From: an uncultured Holophagaceae bacterium
GTDB taxonomy: Bacteria; Acidobacteriota; Holophagae; Holophagales; Holophagaceae
Direction of reading: 5' to 3'
DNA length: 37,204 nt
NCBI GenBank assembly: GCA_903873655.1
Contig: CAIQPH010000055.1
Coordinates: 1-37,204 of the forward strand
Shown: positions 1,683 to 27,440 of the stretch, in pieces
Numbering within the stretch: position 1 is the first letter of the stretch
Layout: every line of letters starts with the position of its first letter
Program-made: the position numbers and the translations under genes
Notes under the pieces: generated by a model
What the model was told of the DNA's origin: nothing
Database searches by the model: none
What the model saw: the letters and a program-made list of their open reading frames with translations, nothing else

Positions 1683-1791
1683 TAGGAAATAAAGAGACAA
1701 ATTGATCTTCAAAGAAACAATGGTTCGATTGCAATAGCTTGCCTTGCGGCTCATTGGTTCGCCTATGATTAGGTCCAATCTGAAGGCAATC

Positions 1792-4365: not shown

Positions 4366-6551
4366 CCCTCTCCCCCGGCACTCGCCTCGGTCCCTACGAG
4401 ATCCTCACGCCCCTCGGCGCGGGCGGGATGGGCGAGGTGTGGAAGGCCAAGGACACGCGGCTCGATCGCTTCGTGGCAGTGAAGGTGCTGCCGGAGCATC
4501 TCGCGGGCAGTGCCGAGGTGCTGGCTCGCTTCGAGCGGGAGGCCAAGGCCGTAGCAGCGTTGAACCATCCCAGCCTCCTGGCCATCTTCGATGTGGGCCG
4601 CCAGGGCGACACCGCCTTCATGGTGATGGAACTGCTTGAAGGCGAAACGCTCCGTCATCGCCTCGCAGGCGGAGGACTTCCATGGCGGAAGGCCACGGAG
4701 CTGGCCATCCAAATGGCCCACGGGCTGGCGGCCGCGCACGGCAAGGGCCTCATCCACCGCGACCTGAAGCCCGAGAACCTGTGGATCACTTCGGGCGGTC
4801 ACCTCAAGATCCTCGACTTCGGCCTGGCCAAGCAACTGCAGGCTCCCGGCGCGAGCTCGCAGTCCATCCTGCCTACCGAGGCATTTGGCCAGGCGAATCC
4901 CACGCAGAACGGGATGATCCTGGGCACCTTCGGCTACATGAGCCCAGAGCAGGCGCGGGGCGAACCCGTGGGCGCCGCCAGCGACCTCTTCGCCTTCGGC
5001 GTGGTGTTCTACGAGATGCTCACAGGCCGCAAGGCCTTCGCCCGGGCGACCGCGGCCGACACCCTCGCGGCAGTCCTGCGGGAGGATCCACCGGCCCTGG
5101 ACTCGACTCCCGGTGGCCTGCCGCCCGCTCTGGACCGCATCGTCCGCCACTGCCTGGAGAAGCGCCCGGAGGCCCGGTTCCAGTCCATGCGCGACCTGGC
5201 CTTCGCCCTGGAGTCTCTCTCCGATGGGTCCGCCCAGCCCTCGGCACCGGCCCAGGACACCACCCCTTCCATCGCGGTGCTGCCCTTCCGGGACATGAGC
5301 TCCAGCAGGGACCAGGACTACTTCTGTGAGGGGCTGGCCGACGAGTTGATCCATGCGCTGACGAGGATCCCGAACCTGCGCGTCGCCTCCCGCACGGCCT
5401 CCTTCCGATTCAAGGAGAACGCCGGGGACGTGGCCGCCATCGCCCAGCAGCTGCACGTCGCCACCATCCTCGAGGGGAGCGTGCGGAAAGCGGGTGAGCG
5501 CCTGCGCGTGTCGGTCCAGCTCATCAGCGCAGCCGAAGGCTTTCATCTCTGGTCAGAGCGGTTCGACCGGGACATGAAAGATGTGTTCGAGGTCCAGGAT
5601 GAGATCACCGAGCAGGTGGTTAAGGTTCTCAGGCTGGTCCTGACGGAGCAGGACCGGAAGATCATCGCCAGGCCTCAGACCAGCCAGGTGGAAGCCTATG
5701 AGCACTACCTCCGCGGCCGCCAATTCTTCTACCGCTACGGGCGCAGCAATCACACGGAGGCCATCCGCCTGTTCGAGCTGGCTGTCGCCATCGACCCGGA
5801 GTATGCCCTGGCTCATGCCGGGATCGCTGACGCCAGCAGCTTTCTCTATGCCTACCACGGAGGGCGCCCCGAGGATCTGGAACGGGCGGAGAAGGCCAGC
5901 GCCAGGGCCTTGAACCTGGCGCCCCAGTTGGCGGAGTGCCATGCCTCCAGGGGTTTCGTGGCCACCATCAGCAAACAGTACGAGGTGGGCGAGCGGGAGT
6001 TCCGAACGGCCATCGCTTTGGATCCCAAACTCTACGATGCCAAGTACCTCTACGCCCGCATGTGCGTTGTCCAGGGACGCATGGAAGAGGCAGCGCGGCA
6101 TTTCGAGGAGGCCCTTGAACTGCGACCTGAGGACTATGTAATCCCCCTTCTCATCGTCATGGTCTACCGATCCCTCGGAAGGTTGGATGAGATCGAGCCC
6201 ACCTCACGCAGGGGCGTCGCTGCCGCCGAGAGGTTTGCCACAGCGAACCCGAACGATCCCCGCCCCCTCTATCTCGGCGCTGGGGGCCTGCTGCTCATCG
6301 GTGAGCGGGAAAGGGGCTTGGAGTGGGCGGCTCGGGCCAGGGCCATCGGCCCCGAGGATGACGGCATCCTCTACAACCTGGCCTGCGTCTATGCGGTCGC
6401 CGGCGAAGCCGACACGGCCCTCGACTGCCTGGAAGGAGCCGTCCGGAATGGCTTCACGGGGCGTAGATGGATCGAACATGACACGGACCTCGATTTAATT
6501 CGCAATACCGATCGCTTCAAGACCCTCCTGGCTGGAATGAAGGACGCCTGA
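4362..6551 (+). CDS. Ser/Thr protein kinase with TolB-N-like domain and TPR repeats (no obvious TM)
   Basis: MTLSPGTRLGPYEIL; HRDLKPENLW; DFGLAKQL; then IAVLPFRDMSSSRDQDYFCEGLADELIHAL...ILEGSVRKAGERLRVSVQL and TPR-like repeats. ATGA overlap with the upstream stop. Confidence 0.92.
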   Translation: MTLSPGTRLGPYEILTPLGAGGMGEVWKAKDTRLDRFVAVKVLPEHLAGSAEVLARFEREAKAVAALNHPSLLAIFDVGRQGDTAFMVMELLEGETLRHRLAGGGLPWRKATELAIQMAHGLAAAHGKGLIHRDLKPENLWITSGGHLKILDFGLAKQLQAPGASSQSILPTEAFGQANPTQNGMILGTFGYMSPEQARGEPVGAASDLFAFGVVFYEMLTGRKAFARATAADTLAAVLREDPPALDSTPGGLPPALDRIVRHCLEKRPEARFQSMRDLAFALESLSDGSAQPSAPAQDTTPSIAVLPFRDMSSSRDQDYFCEGLADELIHALTRIPNLRVASRTASFRFKENAGDVAAIAQQLHVATILEGSVRKAGERLRVSVQLISAAEGFHLWSERFDRDMKDVFEVQDEITEQVVKVLRLVLTEQDRKIIARPQTSQVEAYEHYLRGRQFFYRYGRSNHTEAIRLFELAVAIDPEYALAHAGIADASSFLYAYHGGRPEDLERAEKASARALNLAPQLAECHASRGFVATISKQYEVGEREFRTAIALDPKLYDAKYLYARMCVVQGRMEEAARHFEEALELRPEDYVIPLLIVMVYRSLGRLDEIEPTSRRGVAAAERFATANPNDPRPLYLGAGGLLLIGERERGLEWAARARAIGPEDDGILYNLACVYAVAGEADTALDCLEGAVRNGFTGRRWIEHDTDLDLIRNTDRFKTLLAGMKDA

Positions 6552-6555
6552 ATCC

Positions 6556-9153
6556 ATGACTCTCACACCCGGCTCCCGCCTTGGCCCCTACGAGATCCTC
6601 GCGCCCCTCGGCGCAGGTGGCATGGGCGAAGTCTGGAAGGCGAAGGACACGCGACTGGACCGCTTCGTGGCCGTGAAAGTTCTTCCGGAGCACCTCGCCA
6701 AGCACCCCGAATCCCTGGCCCGCTTCGAGCGCGAGGCCAAGGCCGTGGCGGCTCTGAATCATCCGAACATCACGGGCATCTTCGACATCGGGCGAGTGGA
6801 TGACACTGCCTATGCCGTGATGGAACTGCTCGAAGGCGAGTCGCTGCGGACGCGACTGGACAGTGGCCCGCTCGCCCCACGCAAGGCCACGGAGCTCGCG
6901 ATTCAGATGGCGCAGGGCTTGGCCGCCGCCCACGAGAAGGGCGTCGTCCATCGCGACCTCAAGCCCGACAACCTCTGGATCACCAGGGAAGGCCGGCTGA
7001 AGATCCTCGATTTTGGCTTGGCCAAGCAGTTGCCCGATATGAAATCGGTTTCGGATTCCTTCCTGCCCACGGCGGCTATCAGCCCCGGCCACCATACCGA
7101 GAAAGGCATGATCCTCGGCACGCTGGGCTACATGAGCCCTGAGCAAGTCCGGGGCGAGAGTGTCGATGCCAGGAGTGACCTCTTCAGCTTCGGCGCGGTG
7201 CTCTTTGAGATGCTCACGGGCAAGCGGGCTTTCGCCCGGGACACGGCCAGCGACACCATGGCGGCGATCCTGCGGGACGATTTGCCGGAGCTCGAAAGCG
7301 GCAGCCGGCCCCTGCCTCCCGGTCTCCACCGCCTTCTCCAGCATTGCCTTGAGAAGCGTCCGGAGCAGCGGATCCACTCGGCTCACGACTTGGCCTTCGC
7401 GCTGGAGAGTCTCGCGGGCGGGGAGAGCTCGCCCTCGATCAGGGCACCCTTTGCGCCCCAGCATCGCCGGGTAACGACCGTCTGGGCCGCGACGATGGCC
7501 GTACTGGTCCTCGGTGCGGGGTTAGGAGGATGGTCCCTCAGGCCCCAGGCGGGTCACCCCCCAACCTTCCTGCCACTCACCATCAACAGTGAACCGGTTT
7601 TTGCCGCCCGCTTCGCTCGCCAGGGCCAGTCGGTCTTCTTCAGCACCTTCAACCTGGAAACCCAGGCCAGTCACGTCCAGACGGTGGACGTGGGCAACCT
7701 GGTCCCCCGCGAGATCCTCGGGCCGGATGCCTGGCTGCTCGCCCTCGGCCCCAAGGGCGAGATGGCGGTGCTGACCTCGAACCGCTTTGACGTGCGGATC
7801 GATAAGCCCACAGGCACCCTGGGGCGCTGCCTTCCGGGTGGCGCCCTCCCCCGCCCCGTTTCGCAAGACATCCTCCAGGCGGACTGGAACGCGGAGGGGC
7901 AGATGGCCCTGGTCCGCCAGACCGGGCCATTCAAATGCCAGCTGGAGTTCCCGGAGGGGAAGGTGCTCGCGGCCGAAGCCCAGGGCTGGCTCGGGGACCT
8001 GCGCTTCAGTCCCGATGGAAGGCACCTGGCCTACACCCGTCATCCCAACTCCGAGGACGACATGGGGTTCGTCGCAGTCGTGGACTTGGCCACTGGAAAG
8101 GTCCGGGATCTGGGCCCTGTCTGGGCCACCCTGCAGGGCCTGGCCTGGCGGCCCGACGGACGCGAGATCTGGTTCACGGCCTCGCCCAGCGGCTCCAACC
8201 GGGATCTCCACGGTGTGGACCTGCGGGGTCGCGAACGGACCATTCTCACCTCCCCGACCGGGGTCCAGCTGTTCGACATCGCGTCAGATGGCAAGGTCCT
8301 CCTGGCCTCCTTCGACGTGGCCGCACGAACGCTGGCGCAGCGATCCGGAACCTCCGGCCCATTGGACCTCACCATCCGGACCTATTCACAGATCAGGGAC
8401 CTGAGCCCCGACGGCCGCTGGGTCGTGGTGGATGACGAGGACGACTCCCTCGGTCCGAACTATCCCCTCTACCTGCGCCCCACGGATGGCTCGCTGCCCA
8501 CCCTGCTGGGTCAGGGTTTCGAAACGCACATCGCCCCAGATAGTCAGAGTCTCTGCCTGTTCAAGCAGGAGGGCGAGACCTGGAGGCCCTTCCTGCTCAA
8601 CCGGGCCGGGGGCGAGACGCCCCTCCCCCTCGGGGAATTGAGCTTCGCCCTGAGGCAGTATCCGGCCTGCGTCTGGACGTCCCGGGGCGTACTGGTGGTG
8701 GCGAGGAAGGGTAAGGAAGCGCCACGCCTCTGGAAGCTCACGCCCGCAGGTCCCGAAGCCATGCCGCTCAACGGTTTCGCTGAAGATGTGGAAGAGATCT
8801 GGGCGCCCCGGACCGGTGTGCAGCAACTGCTCACCCGGACCGCCGCTGGCTACTGGGCGCTCCTTGATCTGGACCATCCGAACCTGCCGCCTCGCGCCTT
8901 GCCAGCCCTCTCCTCCAAGGACCGGGTGCTGGGACTCATCGACCAGGGTCGCAGTGTGGTGGTATCGGAGGGTCGCGTGGGAGCCTTCAGGAAGGTGGAC
9001 CTCGCCACCGGGCGGGTGGAGCCGTTCAGGGCTTTTGATGCGGCCAGACTCCCGGCCCGCGCCAAGTGGCGGATCAGTGAGGACGGGACCCTGCTGTTGT
9101 ACACGACCTTTTCCGTTCACTCGCGTCTCTTTCTGGTAGAGGGCCTGAAATGA
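6556..9153 (+). CDS. Ser/Thr protein kinase with TM helix and beta-propeller-like C-terminus
   Basis: MTLTPGSRLGPYEIL; HRDLKPDNLW; DFGLAKQL; TM VWAATMAVLVLGAGLGGWSL; FSPDGRHLAYT repeats. Confidence 0.93.
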   Translation: MTLTPGSRLGPYEILAPLGAGGMGEVWKAKDTRLDRFVAVKVLPEHLAKHPESLARFEREAKAVAALNHPNITGIFDIGRVDDTAYAVMELLEGESLRTRLDSGPLAPRKATELAIQMAQGLAAAHEKGVVHRDLKPDNLWITREGRLKILDFGLAKQLPDMKSVSDSFLPTAAISPGHHTEKGMILGTLGYMSPEQVRGESVDARSDLFSFGAVLFEMLTGKRAFARDTASDTMAAILRDDLPELESGSRPLPPGLHRLLQHCLEKRPEQRIHSAHDLAFALESLAGGESSPSIRAPFAPQHRRVTTVWAATMAVLVLGAGLGGWSLRPQAGHPPTFLPLTINSEPVFAARFARQGQSVFFSTFNLETQASHVQTVDVGNLVPREILGPDAWLLALGPKGEMAVLTSNRFDVRIDKPTGTLGRCLPGGALPRPVSQDILQADWNAEGQMALVRQTGPFKCQLEFPEGKVLAAEAQGWLGDLRFSPDGRHLAYTRHPNSEDDMGFVAVVDLATGKVRDLGPVWATLQGLAWRPDGREIWFTASPSGSNRDLHGVDLRGRERTILTSPTGVQLFDIASDGKVLLASFDVAARTLAQRSGTSGPLDLTIRTYSQIRDLSPDGRWVVVDDEDDSLGPNYPLYLRPTDGSLPTLLGQGFETHIAPDSQSLCLFKQEGETWRPFLLNRAGGETPLPLGELSFALRQYPACVWTSRGVLVVARKGKEAPRLWKLTPAGPEAMPLNGFAEDVEEIWAPRTGVQQLLTRTAAGYWALLDLDHPNLPPRALPALSSKDRVLGLIDQGRSVVVSEGRVGAFRKVDLATGRVEPFRAFDAARLPARAKWRISEDGTLLLYTTFSVHSRLFLVEGLK

Positions 9154-11786
9154 CACTTGCACCCAACACCCACCTTGGTCCTTACGAGATCCTTGCTCCG
9201 ATCGGCGCGGGGGGCATGGGCGAGGTCTACAAGGCCAAGGACGCGCGGCTGGACCGCTTCGTGGCGGTGAAGGTGCTACCGGAGCACCTGGCGAAAAATC
9301 CCGAGGCGCTCGCCCGCTTCGAGCGCGAGGCCAAGGCCGTAGCGGCCCTGAACCATCCGAGCATCATGGGCATCTTCGACATCGGGCATCTGGAGGATAC
9401 CGCCTACGCGGTGATGGAACTGCTCGAGGGCGAGTCGCTGCGGACGAGGCTGGAGCAAGGTCCGATCGCGCCCCGCAAGGCCACGGAACTGGCCATCCAG
9501 ATGGCGCAAGGCTTATCCGCCGCGCACGAGAAGGGCGTGGTCCACCGCGACCTGAAACCGGAAAACCTCTGGATCACCAAGGAGGGCCGCCTCAAGATCC
9601 TCGATTTCGGCCTGGCCAAGCAGCTGCCAGCCCTGGTGGTGGACTCCGGCTCACTTCTGGCCACGGAAGTATTCAGCCAGGGACCCCGTACGGAAAAGGG
9701 CATGATCCTGGGGACCCTGGGCTACATGAGCCCGGAGCAGGTGCGCGGTGAAGCTGTGGACGCCCGGTCTGACCTGTTCAGCTTCGGGATCGTGCTCTTC
9801 GAGATGCTGACCGGCCGGAAGGCCTTCGCCCGAGCCACGCCGGCGGACACCCTCTCGGCGATCCTCAAGGAAGATCCCCCTGAGTTGGAAGAGCAGAGCC
9901 GACCCATCCCTCCTGGGCTGCGGCGGATCCTGGACCACTGCCTGGAGAAGGCGCCCTCCCGGCGCTTCCACAATGCCGAGGATCTGGCCTTCGCCCTGGA
10001 AAATCTATCCACCGGGTCGACCAGTCACGCCCCCTTCACTGCTCCCTTTGCCCCGAAGAATCGCAGGACCACCTGGATCTGGGCGGCTGTGGCAGCCATT
10101 CTGTTGGCAGGCTCAGTTCTCCTGGGCTGGTACCTCCGCGGGGGACCAGCCCGCCCGAACCTGATCCGGTTCGAGATCGCCAATCCCCCCGAAGTTACCA
10201 AGATAGACGCCCCCCGCATTTCCCCGGATGGGCTGCATCTGGCCTTCAGTGCCGTTGACGCCTCCGGGAAGAGCCGCATCTGGGTGCGGTCCCTGAACGC
10301 CCTCGTGGCACAGCCTCTGGCGGGAACAGAAGGCGCCTCGCGGCCCTTCTGGGCCCCGGACAGCCGGTTCATCGGCTTCATGGCGGAAGGCAAGCTCAAG
10401 AAGATCGATGTCGCGGGAGGCCCCGCCCAGAAAATCTGCGATGCCCCAGGCGGGTCCGACGGCTCCTGGAGTTCCGAAGGGGTCATCCTCTACGACGGCT
10501 CGGGCTCCCAGCCCATCAACCGGGTCTCCGCGGCCGGGGGCACTCCTGCCGTGGCAGTCAAGATCGAACCCTCCCGTAAAGAGACGATGGTGGGCTGGCC
10601 GGAATTCCTCCCGGACGGTCGGCATTTCCTCTACCTGGCCACCGGCGAGAAACCCGATGACAGCGTCTACCGCGTGGGCCGGCTCGATTCCATGGAGACG
10701 CAGATCCTGGCACCGGCTCAGACCCTCGTCACCTATGCGCATCCCGGCTATCTCCTCTTCGTGCGGGACAAGACCCTCCTGGCGCAGCCCTTCGATGCCA
10801 AGTCCCTACGGATGAAAGGAGAACCGATCCCCATTGCCGAACACATCGGCACGGACAATGTCGGCCTTGCGTGTTTCTCGGTCTCCCGGAATGGGACCTT
10901 GATCTACCAGACGGGTGAATCCGGCGATCGGTTCCTCTGGGTGGACCGCTCGGGTCGGGAAGGGGAGTCGGAGGGTGAACCCGGCGATTATCACAACCCC
11001 GCCTTCGCTCCGGGAGGGGATCGCCTCGCGTTCGACCTCGCTGATAAACACATCGGGAAGACTGACATCTGGATCCGGGATCTCAAACGCAAGGTCAGCT
11101 CCCGGTTCAGCTTCAGCAGCGGGGCCTTTTGCCCCCTGTGGTCACCCGACGGCCGCACCATCGTCTTCACCGTGGGCAATGATCTCTTCGAGAAGCCCGT
11201 CGAGGGCCAGGGGGAAGAACGGCTGCTCCTCAAGTCCGAAGAACAGAAGTTCGCCTGCGGCTGGAGCCGCGATGGACGCTACCTCGCCTACACGAGCATG
11301 GGCAAAGAAACAAACTGGGACATCTGGGTGCTGCCCCTCTTCGGCGATCGCAAACCCTTCCTGTTCCTGAAGACACCGTTTGCCGAGCTGATGCCCACCT
11401 TCTCGCCGGATGGCCGGTTCCTGGCGTATCAGTCCAACGAGTCCGGACGGATGGAGATCTACATCCAGAGCTTCCCCGGCCCGGGAGGCAAGTGGCAGAT
11501 CTCCGCTGCCGGGGGCACCGATCCCCAATGGCGGGCCGACGGCAGGGAACTCTACTACCGCGCCCCGGACCAGAAGGTGATGGCGATCGACATCCAGGCA
11601 GGCAACGGCATCACCGCTGGCACACCGCAGCCCCTCTTCCCGGGACGCTTCGACTCGGGTCTCGCCCGGAACCGCTACCTCCCGACCGCCGACGGGAAGC
11701 GCTTCCTCACCGTCGCCCCCCTGGGCCGCGAGTCCATGACTCCGACGACGGTCGTGCTGAACTGGAACGCTGAGCTGGGCCACTGA
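9150..11786 (+). CDS. Ser/Thr protein kinase with TM helix and TolB/PD40-type beta-propeller C-terminus
   Basis: MTLAPNTHLGPYEIL; HRDLKPENLW; DFGLAKQL; repeats ISPDGLHLAFSAVD, WSPDGRTIVFT, FSPDGRFLAYQSNESGRMEIYIQSFP; ATGA overlap with the upstream gene. Confidence 0.94.
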   Translation: MTLAPNTHLGPYEILAPIGAGGMGEVYKAKDARLDRFVAVKVLPEHLAKNPEALARFEREAKAVAALNHPSIMGIFDIGHLEDTAYAVMELLEGESLRTRLEQGPIAPRKATELAIQMAQGLSAAHEKGVVHRDLKPENLWITKEGRLKILDFGLAKQLPALVVDSGSLLATEVFSQGPRTEKGMILGTLGYMSPEQVRGEAVDARSDLFSFGIVLFEMLTGRKAFARATPADTLSAILKEDPPELEEQSRPIPPGLRRILDHCLEKAPSRRFHNAEDLAFALENLSTGSTSHAPFTAPFAPKNRRTTWIWAAVAAILLAGSVLLGWYLRGGPARPNLIRFEIANPPEVTKIDAPRISPDGLHLAFSAVDASGKSRIWVRSLNALVAQPLAGTEGASRPFWAPDSRFIGFMAEGKLKKIDVAGGPAQKICDAPGGSDGSWSSEGVILYDGSGSQPINRVSAAGGTPAVAVKIEPSRKETMVGWPEFLPDGRHFLYLATGEKPDDSVYRVGRLDSMETQILAPAQTLVTYAHPGYLLFVRDKTLLAQPFDAKSLRMKGEPIPIAEHIGTDNVGLACFSVSRNGTLIYQTGESGDRFLWVDRSGREGESEGEPGDYHNPAFAPGGDRLAFDLADKHIGKTDIWIRDLKRKVSSRFSFSSGAFCPLWSPDGRTIVFTVGNDLFEKPVEGQGEERLLLKSEEQKFACGWSRDGRYLAYTSMGKETNWDIWVLPLFGDRKPFLFLKTPFAELMPTFSPDGRFLAYQSNESGRMEIYIQSFPGPGGKWQISAAGGTDPQWRADGRELYYRAPDQKVMAIDIQAGNGITAGTPQPLFPGRFDSGLARNRYLPTADGKRFLTVAPLGRESMTPTTVVLNWNAELGH

Positions 11787-12020: not shown

Positions 12021-13753
12021 TCAGGCAGCATGGGGACCTCCATTCTTCACTCCGGGTTGAGAGGTCTTCGGGAGTTGGAGCCCAATGGGGCTCGTTCCCA
12101 GCGCTCTTCGTCTCCCGATGTTGATTGGGACGCTCTTACGCCGTTGTCCAGACCTGTTCGCGAGCGAACCACTCTGACCCCTCATCTCCTTGGGGCGGGC
12201 CCGGCGCTGCCGTGCCTCTCGCGGTTTGTGCGTGGTCGAACTGCTTTCGCCGCTTGCGCGGCTCCCACACACGTCACTGGACGACGATCGCAGGAGGCAG
12301 TCGGCCCCCCAGGACAACCAGGCTTCCCTGGCTTTCCCTTCGTCCAGCAGGTCGCCCTGGCAGTGCATCGCCAGGAAAGCCGAGAATTCATCCCGGTCTG
12401 CGTGCATCCCATTTGGGATGAACTCACAGCCGCATTCATGCTTCCGCTCACTCTGCGGTTTCTTCTTCCGCTTGCCGCACAGGCAACGCGAGGAAAGGTA
12501 GGTCTTCCAGGTGGAGACCAGTTCCAGACTTCCTCCTGAAGCCTTGGCCAGCAGTCCGGTCCGGCTCTCGAACCGGCCCGGGGCCTTGTGCCCCACCGAC
12601 CGTCCCCAGAGCTTCTGCCAGGCCTTCTTGCTCACCTTCTCCGAGCTCAGGTCGTTGGCCATGCTTAGGACCACATGGACCATAGCCCCCTGCAGGGACT
12701 CCCGCTCCGCGGCCATGGCCCGCTGGACCTCGGCCAACTCGACTTTCGTGGACTTCTGCCGGTGGGATTCCACCCAGCGCTTCCGTTCGTTCCGGGGCTT
12801 TATCGTCCCGTCCTCCTGGTAGTTCTCCTGGTTGTTGGCCCGGCGCTGCCGGTCCGACCGACGGCGGTAGACCCGGAGCGCCTTCTCCTTGCGGTCCAGC
12901 CCGGCGCAGAAGTCGAAGGACTTCGCCTCCCCCTCCGTGACCACGGCCACATGGGAGGGCCCCAGGTCCAGCCCGCCACGGCGGCGCTGGACGGTGTGCT
13001 TGGCCTTCTGGAAAGGAACACCACGGAAGACGAGCTGGGCAAAGACCCGCTCCTCGCCTCGGATGGTCCGGGACAGGAGGCGGACATACTTCACGCCCGA
13101 CTCCTTGACCACATTGCCGTCCTTCGTAGTCCGGCAGCTGATGGCGTTCGCGATGGCCAGGGCATGAGCCTGGACGGGATCGTTCGGGTCCACGATCAGG
13201 GGCAGAACCAGGTTGGCGAAAGTCCCGTTCCACTCGATCCGGCCGCCCTCGACGGGCCGGAACCGGATGCCAGCGGCGTTGGACTTCCCCTCCACGGATC
13301 CAGTTCTCCATACCGCTTGAAACGGGGCTTGCCGGATTTAGCGAAGGACCACCGCTCCGCTGTCGCGAAGGCCCGGGAGGCGATCTTCTGCTGGGTGTGG
13401 ACATCGAGGTGGTCCCGGAGCCAGCAGTCCTTCGCCAAGGACCGGTGCTGGTGCAGCGCCGCCTCCGTGAAACCGTGCTTCACCCGGAGGACAGAGAAGG
13501 CCTCCTGCTTGGCTTTGGCCTTGGCTTTCTGCTCGGGGGTGGCATCCTCCTTCGTGGAGCCATGAGGCATGGCCTTGGCCAACTCGAAGCCGGGGTCCCG
13601 GCGCATCGCCGCCAGCCGCCGGAGGGCCTCGCCTTCCACGGCGTTGTAGATCTGCCGGCCCACCTCCTTCCGCAAGCGCAGGACGCAACGGTCCTTCGAG
13701 GTGGACTTGACCTCGACCTCACAGATGAAACTTGGGGTTTTCACTCGGGGCAT
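12021..13753 (-). pseudogene. tnpB: TnpB-family RNA-guided nuclease gene, split by a 1-nt frameshift into ORFs 13196-13753 and 12021-13295
   Basis: RuvC-I GLDLGPSHVAVVTE; likely RuvC-II SSEKVSKKAWQKLWGRSVGHKAPGRF; zinc ribbon CLCGKRKKK...CGCEF; RuvC-III HADRDEFSAFLA; N-terminal ORF ends ...GKPRFKRYGELD and continues in the other frame as VEGKSNAAGIRF. Confidence 0.85.
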
Positions 13754-16932: not shown

Positions 16933-17150
16933 GAGCGGACCGAAGCAAGGACTCATCGCTGGCGACTCTCCCCGGGTCTGGATCATGCGCTCAGGGGAAG
17001 GCGATGGCTTAGGCGCCTTTGCCTTCAACCTCGCCCGCGTACTTGGGGTCCGTTACCTTCGTGGGGTCAGGCAAGAGCCCGTTTGCCTTTCTCTACAGGT
17101 GATTCTCGGGGAACTTCCTTTTCCACCTCATGCTGGTCTTTGGAACCCCC

Positions 17151-20100
17151 ATGTCCTCATCCGACACACACGAGCTTCCCGCGCCTCCGGTGGCTCTGTC
17201 GCCCGAGGAACGGGCTCTGCTGATTGGACCCTTCTCGGGCCCTCCTTTCGATTCCGCGCTCACCCGCGACGAGACGCTGCAACAGATTTTCGCGGAGACA
17301 GCCCTGCGATCCGGCGCTCGGCCCGCCATCGAAGAGGATGGACTTCGGATCACCTATGCCGAACTGGAAGCTACGGCCAATCGCATCGCCCACCTGCTGC
17401 GGGCCAGGGGTGTTGGCCGCGGTTCCCTGGTGGGTCACTGGTTCCCCCGCGGAGCCACGGCCTACGCGATCCTGCTCGGCATCCTGAAAGCCGGAGCGGC
17501 CTATGTCCCCCTGGATCCGGAGCTGCCTCCGGCGCGGGTGCGCCAGGTGGCCACGGAATGCCGTATGGACCTGCTCTTGGCGCCAGCAGCGGTGAGCGAG
17601 GGGCTTGGGCTTGCCTGTCCCGTCCTGGACCCGACGGCACCGGCCTCTAGCCTGAGTGACCTGCCCGACATCGCGCCTCCCCTTGCCAGCGGACCGGAGG
17701 ACCTCGCCTACGTCATCTTCACCTCCGGTTCCACCGGCACGCCGAAGGGCGTGCCCATCTCCCACCGCTCTGTTTGCACCCTCGTCCGGGCGGAACAGCG
17801 CCTGTTTCAGGTCCAACCCGACGACCGGGTCTTCCAGGGCTTCTCCCTCGCTTTCGACGCCTCCGTGGAGGAGCTGTGGCTGGCCTGGGCCAACGGGGCC
17901 TGCCTGGTGTCGGGAACCAAAGCCCTGATGCAATCGGGGCCGGACCTCGGGCAGCGGCTGACCGAAGCGGGGGTCACGGTGTTGTCCACCGTGCCCACGC
18001 TCCTGGGCATCCTCGCGGACCTCATCCCTTCCCTGCGCCTGCTCATCCTGGGCGGGGAGGCCTGTCCTGCGGATCTGGTGGCACGCTGGTGGCGCCCCGA
18101 TCTCCGCCTGGTCAACACCTACGGCCCCACGGAGGCCACGGTCATCTCCACCTGGACCGAGCTGCGGCCGGATCGCCCGGTCACCATCGGCAAGGCCGTG
18201 CCCAACGCTCGGGTCTACGTCCTGGACGGCGCGGGCCGTCCCTGTCCCATCGGCGTGCCAGGAGAGCTGCACCTCTCGGGGGTCGGCCTCTCGAAGGGCT
18301 ACCTGGGTCGACCGGATCTCACTGCGGAGCGGTTCATCCCGAACCCCTACGCGGACGGCCCCTATACGGAGCGCCTCTATCGTACGGGGGACCAGGTCTG
18401 CTTCAATTCGGACGGCGAGCTGGAATTCCTGGGACGCATCGATGCCCAGGTGAAGCTGCGGGGCTTCCGCATCGAGCTCGAAGAAATTGAAGCCTCGCTG
18501 CGCCAGGACGCATCAGTGCTTGTCGCGGCGGTCGCCCTCTGGACAGAGGTCGGCCTCGAACGCCTGGTCGCCTATGTCGTCCCTAAGCAGGGTTGCTCGG
18601 TGGACGAAGCCGCCCTGCTGCGGGGCCTGCGGGAGCGCCTGCCGGTCTACATGGTGCCCGCCAGCGTCGAATGCCTGGATGACCTGCCGGTCCTGGCCAG
18701 CGGGAAGCTGGATCGGAAATGCCTGCCGGCGCCCCGGAAACGGGCCCAGGACGCTCCAACCGGGGAGTACCTGACTGACCACCAGCAGCGCCTCGTGATG
18801 AGCTGGAGCCGGTTGTTCCAGGGCAGGACGCCGGGGCTGGACGAGGACTTCTTCATCGACCTGGGCGGGCATTCCCTCCTGGCCGCGGCCATGGTCTCAG
18901 AGCTCCGGAAGGAGTCTCCCTTCGAGGGCCCGTCCGTCCCCGATGTCTACGCCTTCCCGACCATCGGAGCCCTCGCAGCTGAACTGGAGGCCCGGGTCCA
19001 GCATCGGGCCGCATCTCCTGTTCCGCCGACGGCAATGTCCGCACCGATTCCCAGATGGCGGCACAGGCTCTGCGCAGTGGCCCAGGCGCTTGCCCTCTAT
19101 CCGCTCCTCGGCTTCTATGCCCTGCAGTGGCTCACTCCTTATCTGGTCTACAGTTGGAGCCAGGACCAGGACTTCCCCCGCTCGTTCGGCATCGCGGCGG
19201 CCCTCGCCTCCCTGGTGCTGATCTATCCTGCGATGTTCGCGCTCTCCATTGCCGCGAAGTGGATCCTGCTGGGACGAATCAAGCCTGGCCGCCACCCGAT
19301 CTGGGGCTTCTATTACTGGCGCTGGTGGCTGACTCAGCGGATCATCGCCGCGACCCCCCTCGACTACCTGCTGGAGTCGCCCTGGCTGCCGAGGTACTTC
19401 CGGCTCATGGGAGCGCGCATCGGCAGGAACGTCCACCTGGGGACCACCTCCCTGGCCGCTTACGACCTGGTGGACATCGGGGACCATTCGAGTGTCGGCC
19501 TGGACGCACGGCTGAGCGGCTACTCGCTGGAGGGCGGCTTCCTTGAGATCGGCGGCATCCGCATCGGACACCGGTGCTATGTGGGAAACCGGTCCATCCT
19601 CTCCCCAAATACCCTTTTGGAAGACGGCGCCGTCCTGGAGGATCTGAGCCTCCTCCCAACCGGGACACGAATCGCCACGGGTCAGCATTGGATCGGCTCC
19701 CCAGCGAAACCCCTGCCACCTGCGCAAGCGGATCGCCAACGCATGACGGCGGACCCGCCCGAACCATCCCCCACCCGGCGGTTCTTGGTCGGCGCAGCCC
19801 AGGCCTTGGGTGCCTTCATGGTCCCCGTAGCCTTCCTCGCGTCAATTTTCCCAGGCCTGATCCTCATCAACGAGCTTTATGCCAATACGTCCGGCTACTT
19901 CGCCTATCTTGTGGTGGCGCCTGTGGTGGGACTCTCTTTCGTGGTGCTCCTCGCGCTGGAAATCGCCGCAGCGAAGTGGCTGCTTCTGGGGAAGGTCCAG
20001 CCTGGCACCTACGACCTGCACAGCGGGTTCATCCTGCGGAAGTGGTATGTCGATCGCCTCATGGATATGGGCCTGGATCTGCTGGCTCCTCTATACGCAA

Positions 20101-21758
20101 CGCTCTACCTGGCGCCCTGGTTCCGCCTGCTGGGCGCGCGTCTTGGGGCCTGGGCTGAGGTGTCCACCGCCGGGTCCGGATGCCCCGATCTGCTCGACAT
20201 CGGCGAACAGAGCTTCCTCGCCGACTGCGTCTCCTTCGGACCGCCCCGGGTGGACCTGGGGCGCGTCACGCTCGCCGCGACCAAGGTGGGCCGCCGGGCC
20301 TTCGTGGGCAACAGCGCCCTGGTCCCGGCCGGCACCATCCTCGGGGAAAGCGTCCTCGTGGGCGTGCTGTCCGTGCCCCCGACTGATCCGATGGAGGCGG
20401 CCAGGGTGGACAGCGCCTGGCTGGGCTCACCGGCCATTGATCTCCCCCGGCGCCAGGCGAGCGCGACCTTCAGCGAGGAGGCCACTTTCCGACCCCCGAA
20501 ACGGATGATCCTGCTGCGGGCCTTCATCGAGCAGTTCCGGGTGATCGCACCCGTCACGGGCTTTGTGGTGCTCACGAGCCTCCTGCTCACGGCCATGACC
20601 GAAATCGAGGATGCCTATTCCCTTGCGGCCGCAGCACTCTCCCTGCCCGTCCTGTATTTCCTTGGCGGACTCCTGGCCTGCCTCTTCGTGGTCGCCGTGA
20701 AGTGGTTGGTGGTGGGGGTCTACCGCTCCGGCGAGAAACCTCTCTGGTGTAGCTTCGTGTGGCGGACGGAACTGGTCAGCGGGCTCCATGAGAACCTCGC
20801 CGACTCCTGGCTGCTGCAGCTCCTGCTCGGCACGCCCTTCGTCCCCATCTACTTTCGGCTCCTGGGCGCCAGGATCGGCCGGAGGGTCTGCCTGGAGAGC
20901 ACCTGGCTCACGGAATATGACCTGGTGGACATCGGGGACGAGGCCAGCCTGAACGCAGACTGCACCGTCCAGACCCATCTCTTCGAGGACCGGGTCATGA
21001 AGATGGACCGCATCGACATCGGCGCAGGCTGTTCGGTGGGCGCCGATTCCGTGGTGCTGTACGGGTCACGCATGGAACCGGCCTCGGTTCTCGGAGATCT
21101 GTCCCTGCTGATGAAAGGGGAGACCCTCCCGGCGGGCACGCGGTGGGAAGGCTCCCCGGCCCGCCCATCCCAGCAACTGCAAGCCCCCGCTGCGCAGCCC
21201 GCAAGACCACGCACCAGCCGGCAGACCGGCGTCCAGCTCATCCTGGAGGCGGACCCGACTTCGACAAGGGTGCGCCATCCATTAGTAGAGAACCTCGTCC
21301 TTCTGGAGCCCGACGTTCATGGCCGCCCCCGGGCCCAGGATGGCCAGGGCCGAAGGCTGGCCATCAGCCAAGCCAAGGCCCCCGGCGCCCGGGTCCTGGC
21401 CATCGCCCCGGATGGGCGGATTGGAGTCGATCTGGAGCCGCTGCGGCCATCCCAGGCCCTCGAGGCCGCCTCGGAGCTGTTCCTCCCATCCGAGCGCGCC
21501 TGGGCCGCAGATTTGCCGGAAGCCAGCCGCTGGCGCCGACTGCTCGTCCTCTGGACAGCCAAGGAAGCGGTGCTGAAAGCCCTTGGCCAGGGTTTCAGCT
21601 TCAGCCTGGACCAGGTCGAACTGGGGCCCGATGGCGACGGCAGCCTCAGGCTGCAGCGTCTCTGTGGCAGTGAGCGCCTTGCCCTGGGCTGGAGCCTCGA
21701 GGTGCACGAACGCCACCTGGACGGCCGCGACTACCTGCTGGCCTTGGCCAGGAACTGA
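17151..21758 (+). CDS. Pls-like NRPS-like synthetase: adenylation - PCP - three tandem (2 TM + left-handed beta-helix) domains - C-terminal Sfp-type 4'-phosphopantetheinyl transferase
   Basis: A domain: VIFTSGSTGTPKGVPISHRS, NTYGPTEATV, YRTGDQV, GRIDAQVKLRGFRIELEEIE, SGKLDRK; PCP: DLGGHSLLAA; three repeats (FRLMGARIGRNVHLG..YDLVDIGD / FRLLGARLGAWAEV..DLLDIGE / FRLLGARIGRRVCLE..YDLVDIGD), each preceded by two hydrophobic helices; C-terminal IGVDLEPLRP and LWTAKEAVLKALGQGF. Confidence 0.92.
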   Translation: MSSSDTHELPAPPVALSPEERALLIGPFSGPPFDSALTRDETLQQIFAETALRSGARPAIEEDGLRITYAELEATANRIAHLLRARGVGRGSLVGHWFPRGATAYAILLGILKAGAAYVPLDPELPPARVRQVATECRMDLLLAPAAVSEGLGLACPVLDPTAPASSLSDLPDIAPPLASGPEDLAYVIFTSGSTGTPKGVPISHRSVCTLVRAEQRLFQVQPDDRVFQGFSLAFDASVEELWLAWANGACLVSGTKALMQSGPDLGQRLTEAGVTVLSTVPTLLGILADLIPSLRLLILGGEACPADLVARWWRPDLRLVNTYGPTEATVISTWTELRPDRPVTIGKAVPNARVYVLDGAGRPCPIGVPGELHLSGVGLSKGYLGRPDLTAERFIPNPYADGPYTERLYRTGDQVCFNSDGELEFLGRIDAQVKLRGFRIELEEIEASLRQDASVLVAAVALWTEVGLERLVAYVVPKQGCSVDEAALLRGLRERLPVYMVPASVECLDDLPVLASGKLDRKCLPAPRKRAQDAPTGEYLTDHQQRLVMSWSRLFQGRTPGLDEDFFIDLGGHSLLAAAMVSELRKESPFEGPSVPDVYAFPTIGALAAELEARVQHRAASPVPPTAMSAPIPRWRHRLCAVAQALALYPLLGFYALQWLTPYLVYSWSQDQDFPRSFGIAAALASLVLIYPAMFALSIAAKWILLGRIKPGRHPIWGFYYWRWWLTQRIIAATPLDYLLESPWLPRYFRLMGARIGRNVHLGTTSLAAYDLVDIGDHSSVGLDARLSGYSLEGGFLEIGGIRIGHRCYVGNRSILSPNTLLEDGAVLEDLSLLPTGTRIATGQHWIGSPAKPLPPAQADRQRMTADPPEPSPTRRFLVGAAQALGAFMVPVAFLASIFPGLILINELYANTSGYFAYLVVAPVVGLSFVVLLALEIAAAKWLLLGKVQPGTYDLHSGFILRKWYVDRLMDMGLDLLAPLYATLYLAPWFRLLGARLGAWAEVSTAGSGCPDLLDIGEQSFLADCVSFGPPRVDLGRVTLAATKVGRRAFVGNSALVPAGTILGESVLVGVLSVPPTDPMEAARVDSAWLGSPAIDLPRRQASATFSEEATFRPPKRMILLRAFIEQFRVIAPVTGFVVLTSLLLTAMTEIEDAYSLAAAALSLPVLYFLGGLLACLFVVAVKWLVVGVYRSGEKPLWCSFVWRTELVSGLHENLADSWLLQLLLGTPFVPIYFRLLGARIGRRVCLESTWLTEYDLVDIGDEASLNADCTVQTHLFEDRVMKMDRIDIGAGCSVGADSVVLYGSRMEPASVLGDLSLLMKGETLPAGTRWEGSPARPSQQLQAPAAQPARPRTSRQTGVQLILEADPTSTRVRHPLVENLVLLEPDVHGRPRAQDGQGRRLAISQAKAPGARVLAIAPDGRIGVDLEPLRPSQALEAASELFLPSERAWAADLPEASRWRRLLVLWTAKEAVLKALGQGFSFSLDQVELGPDGDGSLRLQRLCGSERLALGWSLEVHERHLDGRDYLLALARN

Positions 21759-22243: not shown

Positions 22244-22846
22244 CTACGCGAGCAGGTTCAGCGTGCTTCGGAACAAGCTGGTCTGAGCGCCTTGGATGGC
22301 GGTCTGGACGTCAGCTGGCTGGTTCGGGTTAATGTTCGAGGCTGCCGCAGTTGCAGCAGCTCCGAGGGTGCCATTTGGAATGTTATTCAGCTGGTTGGAA
22401 TAGGCGGTCAAAGCCAGGACCGTATTCATGTTGATGGCTGAAGAGGTGAGGTTATCCCGCCCTTGGCTGCCGGTCCCGGCGAACAGGATGGAGGCGGCCG
22501 TGGCATTCAGTCCCCCAACCGACGCGGCTGTGGCGGAAAGAGCGGACAGGTCGGGGGTGGTATTGCCGTTGGCGGCGGATAACTTGTAGATTCCACTCGC
22601 GAGCGAACCTAGGGCGCCACTGCTGCCGGCCAGCGAGGCGAGCGTATCGGGCGCAGGCAAGAAGCCGTTCGAATTGGAAGCCAGACCGGAATAGGCGCTG
22701 ACCAGCGCCTGCAGGGCGGCCGCATCCTGGGCATTGCTCGAACCGGAGGTCGCACTGCTCGAAGTGGCGTTCGAACCCTGGCCGTAGCTGCTGACGGCTG
22801 TTTGGTAGTTGTAGGGGGCCAAAGCGCTCGCAGTTCCAATAGCCAT
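22244..22846 (-). CDS. Hypothetical A/S/N/G-rich protein (cluster member 4)
   Basis: MAIGTASALAPYNYQTAVSSYGQGSNATSSS...; open frame with low-complexity composition and no signal peptide. Confidence 0.6.
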   Translation of the reverse strand: MAIGTASALAPYNYQTAVSSYGQGSNATSSSATSGSSNAQDAAALQALVSAYSGLASNSNGFLPAPDTLASLAGSSGALGSLASGIYKLSAANGNTTPDLSALSATAASVGGLNATAASILFAGTGSQGRDNLTSSAINMNTVLALTAYSNQLNNIPNGTLGAAATAAASNINPNQPADVQTAIQGAQTSLFRSTLNLLA

Positions 22847-22987
22847 GGAAACTACCTCGGTTTCTTCCTTTCGGCAATTTCGACCAGATCCATGAGGGGC
22901 TCGATCGAATCCCGCCCCGGATGACTACATGGTAAGTCCAAGCTAAGAGGGTGTAGCCCGTATCTTGCGAGTGCCGCGTTCTGTTAA

Positions 22988-23395
22988 TCAGGCCGTGAGG
23001 TTGACCGGGGATTGGAGATTAATGCCGGGGAGGGCGGACGCGGGTGTGACCTCGGGGGCAGCGGCGGGGTTCGAGTTGAATTGAGGGCTCTGTTGGCTAG
23101 CCCGAGCCTGCTGAATCTGAGCATAGGCCTGCTGCGCACCGGCCAGATTCCCGGATTGGAGAGCCTGGCCCAAAGCGGCGAAGGGACTCGGCCCGGAACT
23201 CCCCTGGCGGACCTGGGACAGGGCCCCCTGGGGAGCATTCTGCTGGAGCGCGGTGTAGACCTGCTGGGCACCAGCCATATCGCCGGACTGCAGCGCCTTG
23301 CCGAGTTCTTCGAACAGGCTCTTCGTCTGGCTCCACTGGCTCTGCTGGCTCTGCTGCGTAGAACCGACCGCAGAGGAAACACTCAGATCCGACAT
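22988..23395 (-). CDS. Hypothetical Q/S/A-rich protein with two internal repeats (cluster member 3)
   Basis: Repeats LGKALQSGDMAGAQQVYTALQQ and LGQALQSGNLAGAQQAYAQIQQ. Confidence 0.65.
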   Translation of the reverse strand: MSDLSVSSAVGSTQQSQQSQWSQTKSLFEELGKALQSGDMAGAQQVYTALQQNAPQGALSQVRQGSSGPSPFAALGQALQSGNLAGAQQAYAQIQQARASQQSPQFNSNPAAAPEVTPASALPGINLQSPVNLTA

Positions 23396-23499
23396 GGCCC
23401 CCTCCTACAGGGAGAGGGGATCAAAAATCCTCTGCGCCCCAGTTAATATGCCTTAAATATCGGCAACCCCGGGGCGTTTCATGAGGCCCGAGCGGACCC

Positions 23500-23664
23500 T
23501 TATCGCAGATCCAAATACCGACCAAGGGGGCTCAGGCTGTCGTTACCTGAGGTCTGGGACGAACTCGCCTGGGCAGGCTGGATGGCAGAGGTTTGTGTGG
23601 GCTGCTGGGCCCCGAGCAACTGAGACAGGGCAGAGATGCTCTGCAGTGGGTTGTTGCTGATCAT
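23500..23664 (-). CDS. Short Q/S-rich protein, 54 aa, below the supplied ORF-track cutoff (cluster member 2)
   Basis: MISNNPLQSISALSQLLGAQQPTQTSAIQPAQASSSQTSGNDSLSPLGRYLDLR*; composition matches flanking genes. Confidence 0.5.
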   Translation of the reverse strand: MISNNPLQSISALSQLLGAQQPTQTSAIQPAQASSSQTSGNDSLSPLGRYLDLR

Positions 23665-23730
23665 GGGCGTTCTCCACTAGAGTCCCGACGACCGCACTGA
23701 GAGTTGGGTGGCCTGCTTCCGGAGGGTTGC

Positions 23731-24234
23731 TCAGCCAAAGATTGAGAGAGGACTGCCGCTGGATCCGCTCCCAGAATTCCCCATGATGTCGAAGAGCGAG
23801 TTCTGGCCCTGGTTTCCGGAGAGGAGGTTCAGGAGGGCGGTGGGGTCCGAGCTGTTGCTCTGCCCGTTCATCAGGGCCGTCAGAAGGGCACTCTTGGAAC
23901 CGCCGGCATTGGCGGTGCCGTAGGTCCCTGTGCCAGCCTGGAGACTGTTCAAAAGGTGGATCAGGCTCTGAGGGTTTTGCTGGAAGTAGCTCTTCAACTT
24001 CGTGAGATCACCCTGGATGTCCTTCTGGCCCGAGAAAAGATCCTGCATGGCCTGGGTCACGTCTGCGGGTGCCTGTGTGAGTTGCTGAGCCGCCGGGGAG
24101 AGGGTCAGCAGATCCCCGAGGAGACTGGACGTGCCGCTGGTGCCCTGGGCACCGGCTTCATTGGCCACCAGCTGCTGCAGGAGGGTGCTGCCGATGGTTT
24201 GGGCCTGGTTCGAGGCCACTGAGGGAATGCTCAT
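23731..24234 (-). CDS. Hypothetical Q/S/L-rich protein with LSPAAQ motif (cluster member 1)
   Basis: MSIPSVASNQAQTIGSTLLQQL...LGDLLTLSPAAQQLTQ...; no signal peptide. Confidence 0.6.
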   Translation of the reverse strand: MSIPSVASNQAQTIGSTLLQQLVANEAGAQGTSGTSSLLGDLLTLSPAAQQLTQAPADVTQAMQDLFSGQKDIQGDLTKLKSYFQQNPQSLIHLLNSLQAGTGTYGTANAGGSKSALLTALMNGQSNSSDPTALLNLLSGNQGQNSLFDIMGNSGSGSSGSPLSIFG

Positions 24235-24429
24235 GGGAACTCCTGGGCAATCATTGCTGGGAGCCCCCCAGCGCGCAAAAACTCCGCCATCCGCGTGAAC
24301 CTCCAACCAGGCCCGCTCCCATGGACCAGCCGGCCTTCCCGAATCCCCAATGACGGGTCAGCCATTCGGTGGTTTCATGGAGGGCCACGGCTTCGACCTA
24401 TCAGGCTTCGACCTTCCAGCGGAGACCCC

Positions 24430-25293
24430 ATGAGCCACCTGCCAGCCGAATCCCGCCCCCGCGTGACCCTGCCGCAGTTGCATGCATGGCAACACGCGGG
24501 GCGGAAGTTGGTGATGGTCACAGCCTACGATGCCGCCACGGCGCGCATCGCTGATGCCGCAGGGGTGGACATCATCCTGGTGGGCGACAGCGTGGGAAAC
24601 GTCTGCCTGGGCTTCGACAACACCCTGCCCGTCAGCATGGCCATGATGAACCACCACCTGGAGGCCGTGGCCCGCACCCATCCCTGCGCGTTCCTGATGG
24701 CCGACATGCCCTACCTGAGCTTCCACCTCAGCGTGGAGGACACCGTCCGCAACGCCGGCGGCTTCCTTCAGCGGGGCGCCCAGGCCGTCAAGCTCGAGGG
24801 CGGCGCCAAGCGTCTGCCCATGATCCACGCCCTCATTGATGCCGAGATCCCGGTGATGGGACACCTGGGACTCACCCCCCAGAGCGTGAACCCCATGGGC
24901 GGGTTCAAGGTCCAGGGCAAGCAGAAGTCGGATGCCCTCCGCCTGCTTGAAGATGCCCAGAAGCTCCAGGAAGCCGGCTGTTTCGGCCTTCTGCTGGAGG
25001 GCATCCCGGCCGATCTTGCCGCGAAGGTGACGGAGACGGTCGAGATCCCCACCATTGGCATCGGAGCCGGCCCTCAATGCTCGGGCCAAGTGCTGGTCTT
25101 CCACGACGTGCTCGGTCTGCTGCCAGGCACCTCGGCGAAATTCGTCCGACGCTATGCCAAGGGATTCGAGGATCTACGCGCGGCACTGGCAGAGTGGGCG
25201 GAAGATGTCCGCGGGGGAGGCTTCCCTGATGAGCGGGAATCCTATACCCTTCCTGAAGCGGTTCGCCCGGCTATAAGCCAGTGGCGGCCCTGA
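24430..25293 (+). CDS. panB: 3-methyl-2-oxobutanoate hydroxymethyltransferase
   Basis: VTAYDAATARIADAAGVDIILVGDSVGNVCLG, EGGAKR, PVMGHLGLTPQSVN, IPTIGIGAG. Confidence 0.96.
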   Translation: MSHLPAESRPRVTLPQLHAWQHAGRKLVMVTAYDAATARIADAAGVDIILVGDSVGNVCLGFDNTLPVSMAMMNHHLEAVARTHPCAFLMADMPYLSFHLSVEDTVRNAGGFLQRGAQAVKLEGGAKRLPMIHALIDAEIPVMGHLGLTPQSVNPMGGFKVQGKQKSDALRLLEDAQKLQEAGCFGLLLEGIPADLAAKVTETVEIPTIGIGAGPQCSGQVLVFHDVLGLLPGTSAKFVRRYAKGFEDLRAALAEWAEDVRGGGFPDERESYTLPEAVRPAISQWRP

Positions 25294-25344
25294 TACCTCT
25301 CTTGGCAATCGAGAGGCGCCACCTGAAGGGTCCCGTTTTTGTCC

Positions 25345-26229
25345 ATGCGAATCGTCCGCACCATCGCTGACCTGCGTGCCCTCCTCAGGCCCTTGAGGGA
25401 AGAAGGCAAGCGGATCGGTTTCGTCCCCACCATGGGCTTCCTTCACGAGGGCCACGGCTCCCTGATCCGCCAGAGCGCCGCCCGCTGTGACGTCACCATC
25501 GTCTCGATCTTCGTGAACCCGACCCAGTTCGGTCCTGGCGAAGACCTGGCCAACTACCCCCGGGACCTGGAAAAGGACCAGAATCTGTGTCTGGAGGCCG
25601 GAGCGAGCGTGCTCTTCCTCCCCGAAGTCTCCGAGATCTACCCCACGGGGTTCCAGACCCATGTCGAGCCCGGCCGGCTGGCGGAGCCGCTCTGCGGGGG
25701 ATTCCGGCCTGGCCACTTCCGGGGCGTGGCCACGGTCGTGGCCAAGCTCTTCAACATGGTGCAGCCCGATCTGGCCTTCTTCGGCCAGAAGGATTACCAG
25801 CAGACGGTGGTAACCCGCCGCATGGCCCGGGACCTGAACATGCCCGTGGACGTGGTGGTGGTGCCGACCGTCCGTGAAGCCGACGGCCTCGCCATGAGCA
25901 GCCGCAACGCCTACCTCGATGAGGATGCCCGGCGCCGGGCCCTCTGCATCAGCCAGGGACTCCTGGCCGCCAAGGCCGCCTTCGACGCCGGCGAACGTTC
26001 CACTGAGCGTCTCCTTGAGATCGTCAGAAAATCCCTGGCTGAAGTCGACTCGATCCAATACGCCGAGCTGGTGGACACCCAGAACCTGGAACCTCTTCCC
26101 GAGCAGGTGGACCGGGCCGCCGTCCTCTGCGTCGCTGCCTATGTGGGCACCACCCGGCTGATCGATAACGTGCTCTTCACCCCAGCCAGCCCTGGGACCG
26201 GGTCTGCACCGACGCTAAAGAGTTCCTAG
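25345..26229 (+). CDS. panC: Pantothenate synthetase
   Basis: GFVPTMGFLHEGHGSLIRQ, SIFVNPTQFGPGEDL, FGQKDYQQ, SSRNAYL. Confidence 0.96.
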   Translation: MRIVRTIADLRALLRPLREEGKRIGFVPTMGFLHEGHGSLIRQSAARCDVTIVSIFVNPTQFGPGEDLANYPRDLEKDQNLCLEAGASVLFLPEVSEIYPTGFQTHVEPGRLAEPLCGGFRPGHFRGVATVVAKLFNMVQPDLAFFGQKDYQQTVVTRRMARDLNMPVDVVVVPTVREADGLAMSSRNAYLDEDARRRALCISQGLLAAKAAFDAGERSTERLLEIVRKSLAEVDSIQYAELVDTQNLEPLPEQVDRAAVLCVAAYVGTTRLIDNVLFTPASPGTGSAPTLKSS

Positions 26230-26234
26230 GGGAA

Positions 26235-26612
26235 TTACACCCGAAGAACGAGGTCGGAATAGGGCTCCAGCTGGCGGTCGGAAGTCAGCAACCGCAAGGG
26301 TTCGCTGATTGCTTGTGCCACCAGCATCCGATCGAAGGGATCCTTGTGGTGCCATGGTAGAGCGGCACTAGCACAGGCATGTTCGACGGTGATGGGCAGG
26401 ATGGTGAAGGGATTGCTGTAGAGCGCTGACCTCAATTCCTCCAGATCCGCTACCAGATCGCCACGACTGATTTTAATGGCGAGTTCCCAGAACACAACCG
26501 AAGACACGAAGACCTCGTGAGCCTCGTTGATTAGATTCCTCGCTTTCCTCGTGAGTTTGGGATCATCCGTGTTCAGCCAGAGAAAGATGTGGGTATCCAG
26601 CAGCAGCTTCAC
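26235..26612 (-). CDS. PIN-domain toxin (VapC-like)
   Basis: MKLLLDTHIFLWL, FWELAIK, DPFDRMLVAQA; 4-nt overlap with antitoxin. Confidence 0.9.
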   Translation of the reverse strand: MKLLLDTHIFLWLNTDDPKLTRKARNLINEAHEVFVSSVVFWELAIKISRGDLVADLEELRSALYSNPFTILPITVEHACASAALPWHHKDPFDRMLVAQAISEPLRLLTSDRQLEPYSDLVLRV

Positions 26613-26851
26613 TTGGATCCGCCGTAGAACAGAGCCTCGATGTCTGGGTTCGGAGCGTCGAAGTCACCCGGAACCGTTAGCTTGCCCTTGAGGAGTCCGA
26701 ATTGGATCTTGCCTTTGGCTGGCACCAGGGATGTTATTCGCGCTTGGGGCTTGCCATTGCGAGCGATGATCACGTCCTTTCCGCTAGCCGCTTGATCCAC
26801 CAGTGCCGAAAGCTGGGTCTTGGCTTCGTAGATGTTGACGACCCTTTTCAC
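26609..26851 (-). CDS. Phd/YefM-family antitoxin (GTG start)
   Basis: VNIYEAKTQLSALVDQAASGKDVIIARNGKPQARI. Confidence 0.9.
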   Translation of the reverse strand: MKRVVNIYEAKTQLSALVDQAASGKDVIIARNGKPQARITSLVPAKGKIQFGLLKGKLTVPGDFDAPNPDIEALFYGGSK

Positions 26852-26869
26852 TTTGCACCTCCACTACTA

Positions 26870-26884
26870 AGTCTAGTCTAGTTT
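26870..26884 (-). promoter_or_regulatory. Putative TA operator (CTAGTCTAG element) upstream of the Phd/PIN module
   Basis: CTAG-T-CTAG at 26873-26881 inside an AGTCTAGTCTAGT tandem, with TTGACG/TTGACC -35-like sequences on the minus strand further upstream. Confidence 0.35.
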
Positions 26885-27041
26885 GGTCAATCGTCAAGTT
26901 GGACGGACCTTGGTGAACCCGACGCTCCAGATTACACATGAAATTTGCATTGGAAAAATTCGAGGGTGGACCTGGGGTAATCCTGGGTTCATTCTTAGGT
27001 CTTGGCCGGGACTCCCGTTTAGAGCCTGGACCGGAGGATGT

Positions 27042-27440
27042 ATGCTGCGCCACTTCCTGCTCGGAAAGATCCATCGTGCCACCGTGACGAGGGCCGATCT
27101 GGATTACGTAGGGTCGATCACCCTGGACCCGCTGCTCATCGAGGCCGCGGGGTTCATGGAGAACGAGAAGATCGACATTTACGACGTGACCAACGGGTCC
27201 CGGCTGTCCACCTACGTGATCCCCGGGGTATCCGGTTCCGGCGAAGTCGGCATCAACGGTGCCGCCGCCCACCTGGTCAAGGCCGGGGATCTGGTGATCA
27301 TCGCTGCCTACGGGTGGATGAGCCCCGAGGAAGCCGAGGCCCTGGCCCCCAAGGTCGTTTTCGTCGACGAACGCAACCGCATCACGGAGTTGCGGACCCA
27401 GGAGCGCACCCCCCTCTGCATGGCCGCTTTCACGGACTGA
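27042..27440 (+). CDS. panD: Aspartate 1-decarboxylase precursor
   Basis: [29 protein letters not shown] with Gly-Ser self-cleavage site; [20 protein letters not shown]. Confidence 0.96.

Follow-up and report, generated by a model that had tools for sequence, protein, structure and literature searches.

Synthetase and phosphopantetheinyl transferase domains in one reading frame

Does a single gene of an uncultured Holophagaceae bacterium encode both a poly-amino-acid synthetase and the phosphopantetheinyl transferase (PPTase) that would prime it? The question is raised by an open reading frame at 17151-21758 (+ strand) of the window, by which we mean the whole 37,204-nucleotide stretch of DNA that was analyzed. 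The initial annotation had read it as an adenylation domain (A) and a peptidyl carrier (PCP), followed by membrane units of the type found in the ε-poly-L-lysine synthetase Pls and by an Sfp-type PPTase. The frame runs uninterrupted for 1,535 codons (1,535 amino acids); an alternative in-frame ATG lies at 17130, and homologues favor the start at 17151. Pfam and NCBIfam searches matched, in order along the protein, AMP-binding (residues 47-385, E = 6 × 10−77), AMP-binding_C (445-519), PP-binding (562-611, E = 4.5 × 10−7), TIGR02353 and ACPS, so that all four profiles expected from that reading (AMP-binding, PP-binding, TIGR02353, ACPS) were recovered. Condensation and thioesterase domains, described as absent, indeed had no Pfam match in the frame. 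Together with conservation in congeners, the frame and profile matches give the layout A-PCP-[2TM-LbH]x3-PPTase, and each sequence feature by which we judged membership of the Pls/PosA family was present.

The adenylation domain (residues 47-525; 17289-18725, +) was delimited by PF00501/PF13193, TIGR01733 and alignment to Pls (7wew) and PosA (8g97). From this alignment we read its specificity code as DAESIGTVIK, in which Asp and Glu at positions 1 and 3 denote a pocket for a basic amino acid and position 2 is Ala, as in lysine-activating members of the family (PMC10522769). Four positions differ from PosA, and one conservative position differs from the solved ε-poly-lysine synthetase 7wew, whose code reads DAESIGTVV in the alignment, followed by the usual Lys. 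Because the code is one conservative residue away from that of an ε-poly-lysine synthetase, the predicted substrate is L-lysine, which agrees with the cationic product first proposed for this gene. The carrier domain (18783-19025, +; PF00550) has its attachment Ser in a conserved DLGGHSLLA motif.

The membrane region matched TIGR02353 over the full length of the model (positions 1-695 of 695) at residues 643-1337 (670.7 bits, E = 2.5 × 10−201; curated cut-off, 423.1 bits), as expected of the Pls architecture. An AlphaFold model of residues 640-1338, built with 30 homologues (pLDDT 91.1, pTM 0.91), contained exactly three repeats of a helix pair and a beta-helix: unit 1 at 19071-19730, unit 2 at 19770-20450 and unit 3 at 20499-21161 (all +). 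The helix pairs lie at residues 641-706, 874-946 and 1117-1188, with helices of about 30 residues, and a short-strand beta-helix follows each. Top Foldseek matches of this model were left-handed beta-helix proteins, for example gamma-carbonic anhydrases and hexapeptide acyltransferases; model and structural search thus agree with the three tandem units of two helices and a left-handed beta-helix noted from the letters.

A reduced PPTase domain of the Sfp lineage

The ACPS profile (PF01648) matched residues 1423-1532 (21417-21746; 62.4 bits, E = 4.8 × 10−17; cut-off, 25 bits). The GVDLE motif lies at 21423-21437 and is followed by the catalytic helix WTAKEAVLK. AlphaFold folded the last 198 residues as a PPTase (pLDDT 85.8, pTM 0.82), and the best PDB matches of that model in Foldseek were human AASDHPPT (2cg5, E = 4 × 10−8) and Sfp (4mrt, E = 1 × 10−7), followed by AcpS enzymes and the PPT domain of fungal fatty acid synthase (FAS; 2wat). 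Profile match and fold therefore bear out an Sfp-type PPTase in the same polypeptide. Its first proposed extent, about 21227-21758, was right for the domain and wrong for the start: based on profile, alignment, AlphaFold and Foldseek, we place the Sfp-lineage single-lobe domain at 21303-21755 (+), beginning at about residue 1385, after a variable linker (21168-21302, +) with 21-41% identity between less close species pairs.

The catalytic acidic residues, whose loss would have counted against the domain, are present: D1427, E1429, W1468, E1472 and K1476 are invariant in an alignment of 28 sequences. In a sister genus the motif is GVDLV, with V for the second acidic residue, and this can be tolerated because the first and third residues of the PPTase acidic triad are essential and the second is dispensable (PMC4103896). 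The dN/dS of the PPTase domain (0.18-0.40) is similar to that of the A and PCP domains, with values of up to 1.04 in the linker, which indicates that the domain is under purifying selection.

Judged by the two lobes of an Sfp-type PPTase, the fused domain falls short, as most of the N-terminal helical lobe is missing. About 89-96 residues precede GVDLE in the fused form, some 45 of them linker, versus 111-151 in separate PPTase genes of other phyla (stop-to-stop reading), and Q, R, K, V or T stands in place of the S-H-S histidine (Sfp His90 position). The short form is common to the sister genus and the fused clade, and therefore the reduction of the lobe predates the fusion. We consider the fused PPTase likely to be catalytically active, and say no more than likely in view of the shortened N-terminal lobe and the missing Sfp histidine. 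Since single-lobe PPTases such as AcpS and the fungal FAS PPT domain act as oligomers with the active site between subunits, the reduced domain may, by analogy, depend on oligomerization of the synthetase.

Proposed self-priming and the PPTase complement of the genomes

The reading that we favor, and hold to be probable, is that the product of this open reading frame is a membrane-bound poly-L-lysine synthetase of the Pls/PosA family, made from a single gene and carrying an integrated, self-priming PPTase, and that the fusion arose once. The C-terminal domain would take phosphopantetheine from CoA and attach it to the GGHSL serine of its own PCP, in cis or across protomers. Adenylation of L-lysine by the A domain and loading of the amino acid onto the holo-PCP would follow, and the membrane helix/beta-helix units would join lysyl units iteratively through isopeptide bonds and release the polymer or export it.

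We searched 47 genomes of the genus to which the window belongs (a Holophagaceae genus, Geothrix and its kin, soil and sediment bacteria) with PF01648. Each had one AcpS-type match, the type being confirmed on 15 loci, and an additional PPTase turned up in the 14 genomes that have this synthetase and, beyond these, in G009 alone. The one in G009 is the only further non-AcpS PPTase that we saw in the genus: at locus L159 (3103-6591) it lies about 0.5 kb downstream of an A-PCP gene.

A second Pls-like family, here class II, also occurs in Holophagaceae (L155, L156, L157 and L158, in G043, G037, G059 and G065, respectively). Its code, DSECYGGVTK, is that of a Bdellovibrionales enzyme reported to have modest arginine activity (PMC10522769). 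Class II genes have no adjacent PPTase, and in several of their genomes AcpS was the only PPTase found; therefore, a Pls-like protein can apparently work without an Sfp-type partner. The carrier motif is GGHSL in the class of the fusion versus GGDSL in class II, and a DSL motif is typical of AcpS substrates. This difference between the carriers may explain why only the class of the fusion travels with a PPTase.

These class II genomes, together with the truncated lobe, the lost histidine and the GVDLV of the sister genus, would suit a PPTase domain that is a degenerate remnant, or has only a structural or regulatory role, with the housekeeping AcpS priming the carrier. We regard this as unlikely: the essential first and third triad residues, the W and the K are invariant, the dN/dS is low, the carrier lacks the AcpS-like GGDSL of class II, and a congener in which the two genes are separate still has an uninterrupted PPTase gene, its start overlapping the synthetase. 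It is less likely still that the PPTase acts mainly in trans, on other carriers or on neighboring Pls molecules, such that "self-activating in cis" would be wrong. Apart from the fused domain, only AcpS-type PPTases were found in these genomes, some of which also hold a partnerless class II Pls, and the single-lobe form of the domain resembles the oligomeric AcpS and fungal FAS PPT domains in Foldseek; however, among its matches the genome of the window showed no further full A-PCP protein, and across phyla the PPTase follows the synthetase as a neighbor. A stronger form of the favored self-priming reading, which we put forward tentatively and with somewhat less than even confidence, is that these are autonomous poly-lysine synthetases throughout the genus, whose single AcpS-like lobe would function only within the synthetase oligomer, and that the polymerase would need no helper enzyme.

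Distribution and history of the fusion

The fusion is present in one intact frame in 12 of the 47 genomes of the genus, namely the window and eleven others at 68-80% identity; one of the copies is from the isolate Geothrix limicola Red804 (L015). A 13th genome (G034) carries it in fragments, and in a 14th (G031) synthetase and PPTase are separate ORFs on one contig. Although the window comes from a fragmented metagenome-assembled genome and related genomes have two separate genes, an assembly or sequencing error such as a frameshift joining two genes is wholly improbable, as the same frame is intact in all 12 genomes, an isolate assembly among them, and the fusion is real.

Outside the genus, we found no such fusion in our sample of 396 Acidobacteriota, 338 Verrucomicrobiota and 396 Bacteroidota genomes, so the search for further TIGR02353-ACPS fusions that the initial annotation had suggested was positive within the genus and negative elsewhere among these genomes. 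The PPTase profile had no match in the N-terminal extensions of some Bacteroidota homologues, and the best 10 plasmid-borne Pls matches all end before the PPTase region. In one subclade, that of the window, the fusion keeps coxB/cyoE and panBCD as neighbors. The idea that the fusion is transferable as a single gene found no support: in the sampled genomes it is confined to one genus, its neighbors are constant in the subclade, and those 10 plasmid-borne Pls proteins are unfused. No conserved partner gene, for lysine supply or export, was common to all fused loci.

Unfused relatives indicate how the fusion may have formed. The synthetase of the sister genus (G073, G077) has 57% identity, and its TGA overlaps the GTG start of the PPTase by 4 nucleotides (GTGA). 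In G031, the PPTase starts at ATGATG, overlapped by the stop of the synthetase, and is an open gene. The Pls tree nests G031 within the fused clade, next to a fused copy (SH-aLRT 100); the PPTase tree agrees on this placement and puts the sister genus closest outside the clade (bootstrap 92, SH-aLRT 81). A stand-alone PPTase directly adjoins Pls in 17 or more of the loci examined from other phyla, with further cases in the wider genome sample; it lies downstream in Verrucomicrobiota, Bacteroidota and Obscuribacterales and upstream in Myxococcota/Desulfobulbaceae. The simplest history runs from an operonic pair through an overlapping pair to a single fusion at the root of the genus and one later fission. 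Because one congener split the genes again, the covalent linkage is dispensable. By a Rosetta-stone argument from these recurrent neighbors, the PPTase would serve the synthetase. In one Verrucomicrobiota genome (G415; L168, 1360-6006), Pls and PPTase lie in the same frame with a single TAA between them, which is either a near-fusion of independent origin or a fusion that split recently.

Other genes in the window

Upstream of the fusion, four successive PknB-like Ser/Thr kinase genes (1744-11786, +) have similar N-terminal kinase domains and differing C-termini, an apparent tandem expansion; the kinase domain was checked on the first of the four. A TnpB/OrfB-like transposase gene, recognized from its translation, is split over two overlapping frames (12021-13753, -) and is probably broken; 12021-13295 had no Pfam match. 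Convergent with the fusion, three short proteins rich in Gln, Ser and Ala are encoded at 22244-24306 (-), and a homologue of the one at 23731-24306 directly follows the PPTase in G031 and L037. The pantothenate synthesis genes panB, panC and panD (24295-27440, +) lie some 2.5 kb downstream from the fusion, and their place is kept in the subclade of the window. We considered a functional link, as pantothenate is a CoA precursor, and rejected it: the synteny is limited to that subclade, and we treat it as a coincidence of vertical descent.

Significance and comparison with known systems

The predicted product is a lysine polymer of antimicrobial type, and the fusion predicts poly-lysine production in Acidobacteriota; we found no paper naming both Geothrix and polylysine. 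The locus also gives poly-amino-acid synthetases a dedicated priming partner, with neighboring genes, 4-nucleotide overlap, fusion and re-split forming a natural series that links the PPTase functionally to the synthetase. A polymerase and its primer on one gene would suit heterologous poly-lysine production, and the shortened PPTase offers a test of the minimum Sfp fold needed for activity. No account of a Pls joined to a PPTase domain, or of such a domain cut down to a single lobe, was found in the open-access papers searched, consistent with the first impression of an undescribed class. What we describe is apparently an inherited, undescribed fusion of known parts.

The closest of these parts are the Streptomyces Pls and the cationic homo-polyamino-acid (CHPA) synthetases PosA, PDAP and PDAB (TIGR02353), which likewise consist of A, PCP and three tandem membrane units without condensation or thioesterase domains; Pls shares a nearly identical lysine specificity code. 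Unlike the fusion, the Pls/PosA synthetases have no PPTase domain described in the literature examined, and PosA was primed in vitro with added Sfp (PMC10522769). Integrated PPTases are known from the enediyne polyketide synthase CalE8 and from PfaC-type fusions in polyunsaturated fatty acid (PUFA) synthases (PMC3107222, PMC3098273). Together with the PPT domain of fungal FAS, these likewise hold a carrier and its own PPTase in one polypeptide. They are polyketide or fatty acid synthases, whereas the fusion is a nonribosomal peptide synthetase-like amino-acid polymerase with a membrane domain, and its PPTase, unlike theirs, is a shortened member of the Sfp lineage. The operonic pairs of Verrucomicrobiota, Bacteroidota, Myxococcota and Desulfobulbaceae place the same two proteins side by side, but there the PPTase is unfused, longer and retains its N-terminal lobe.
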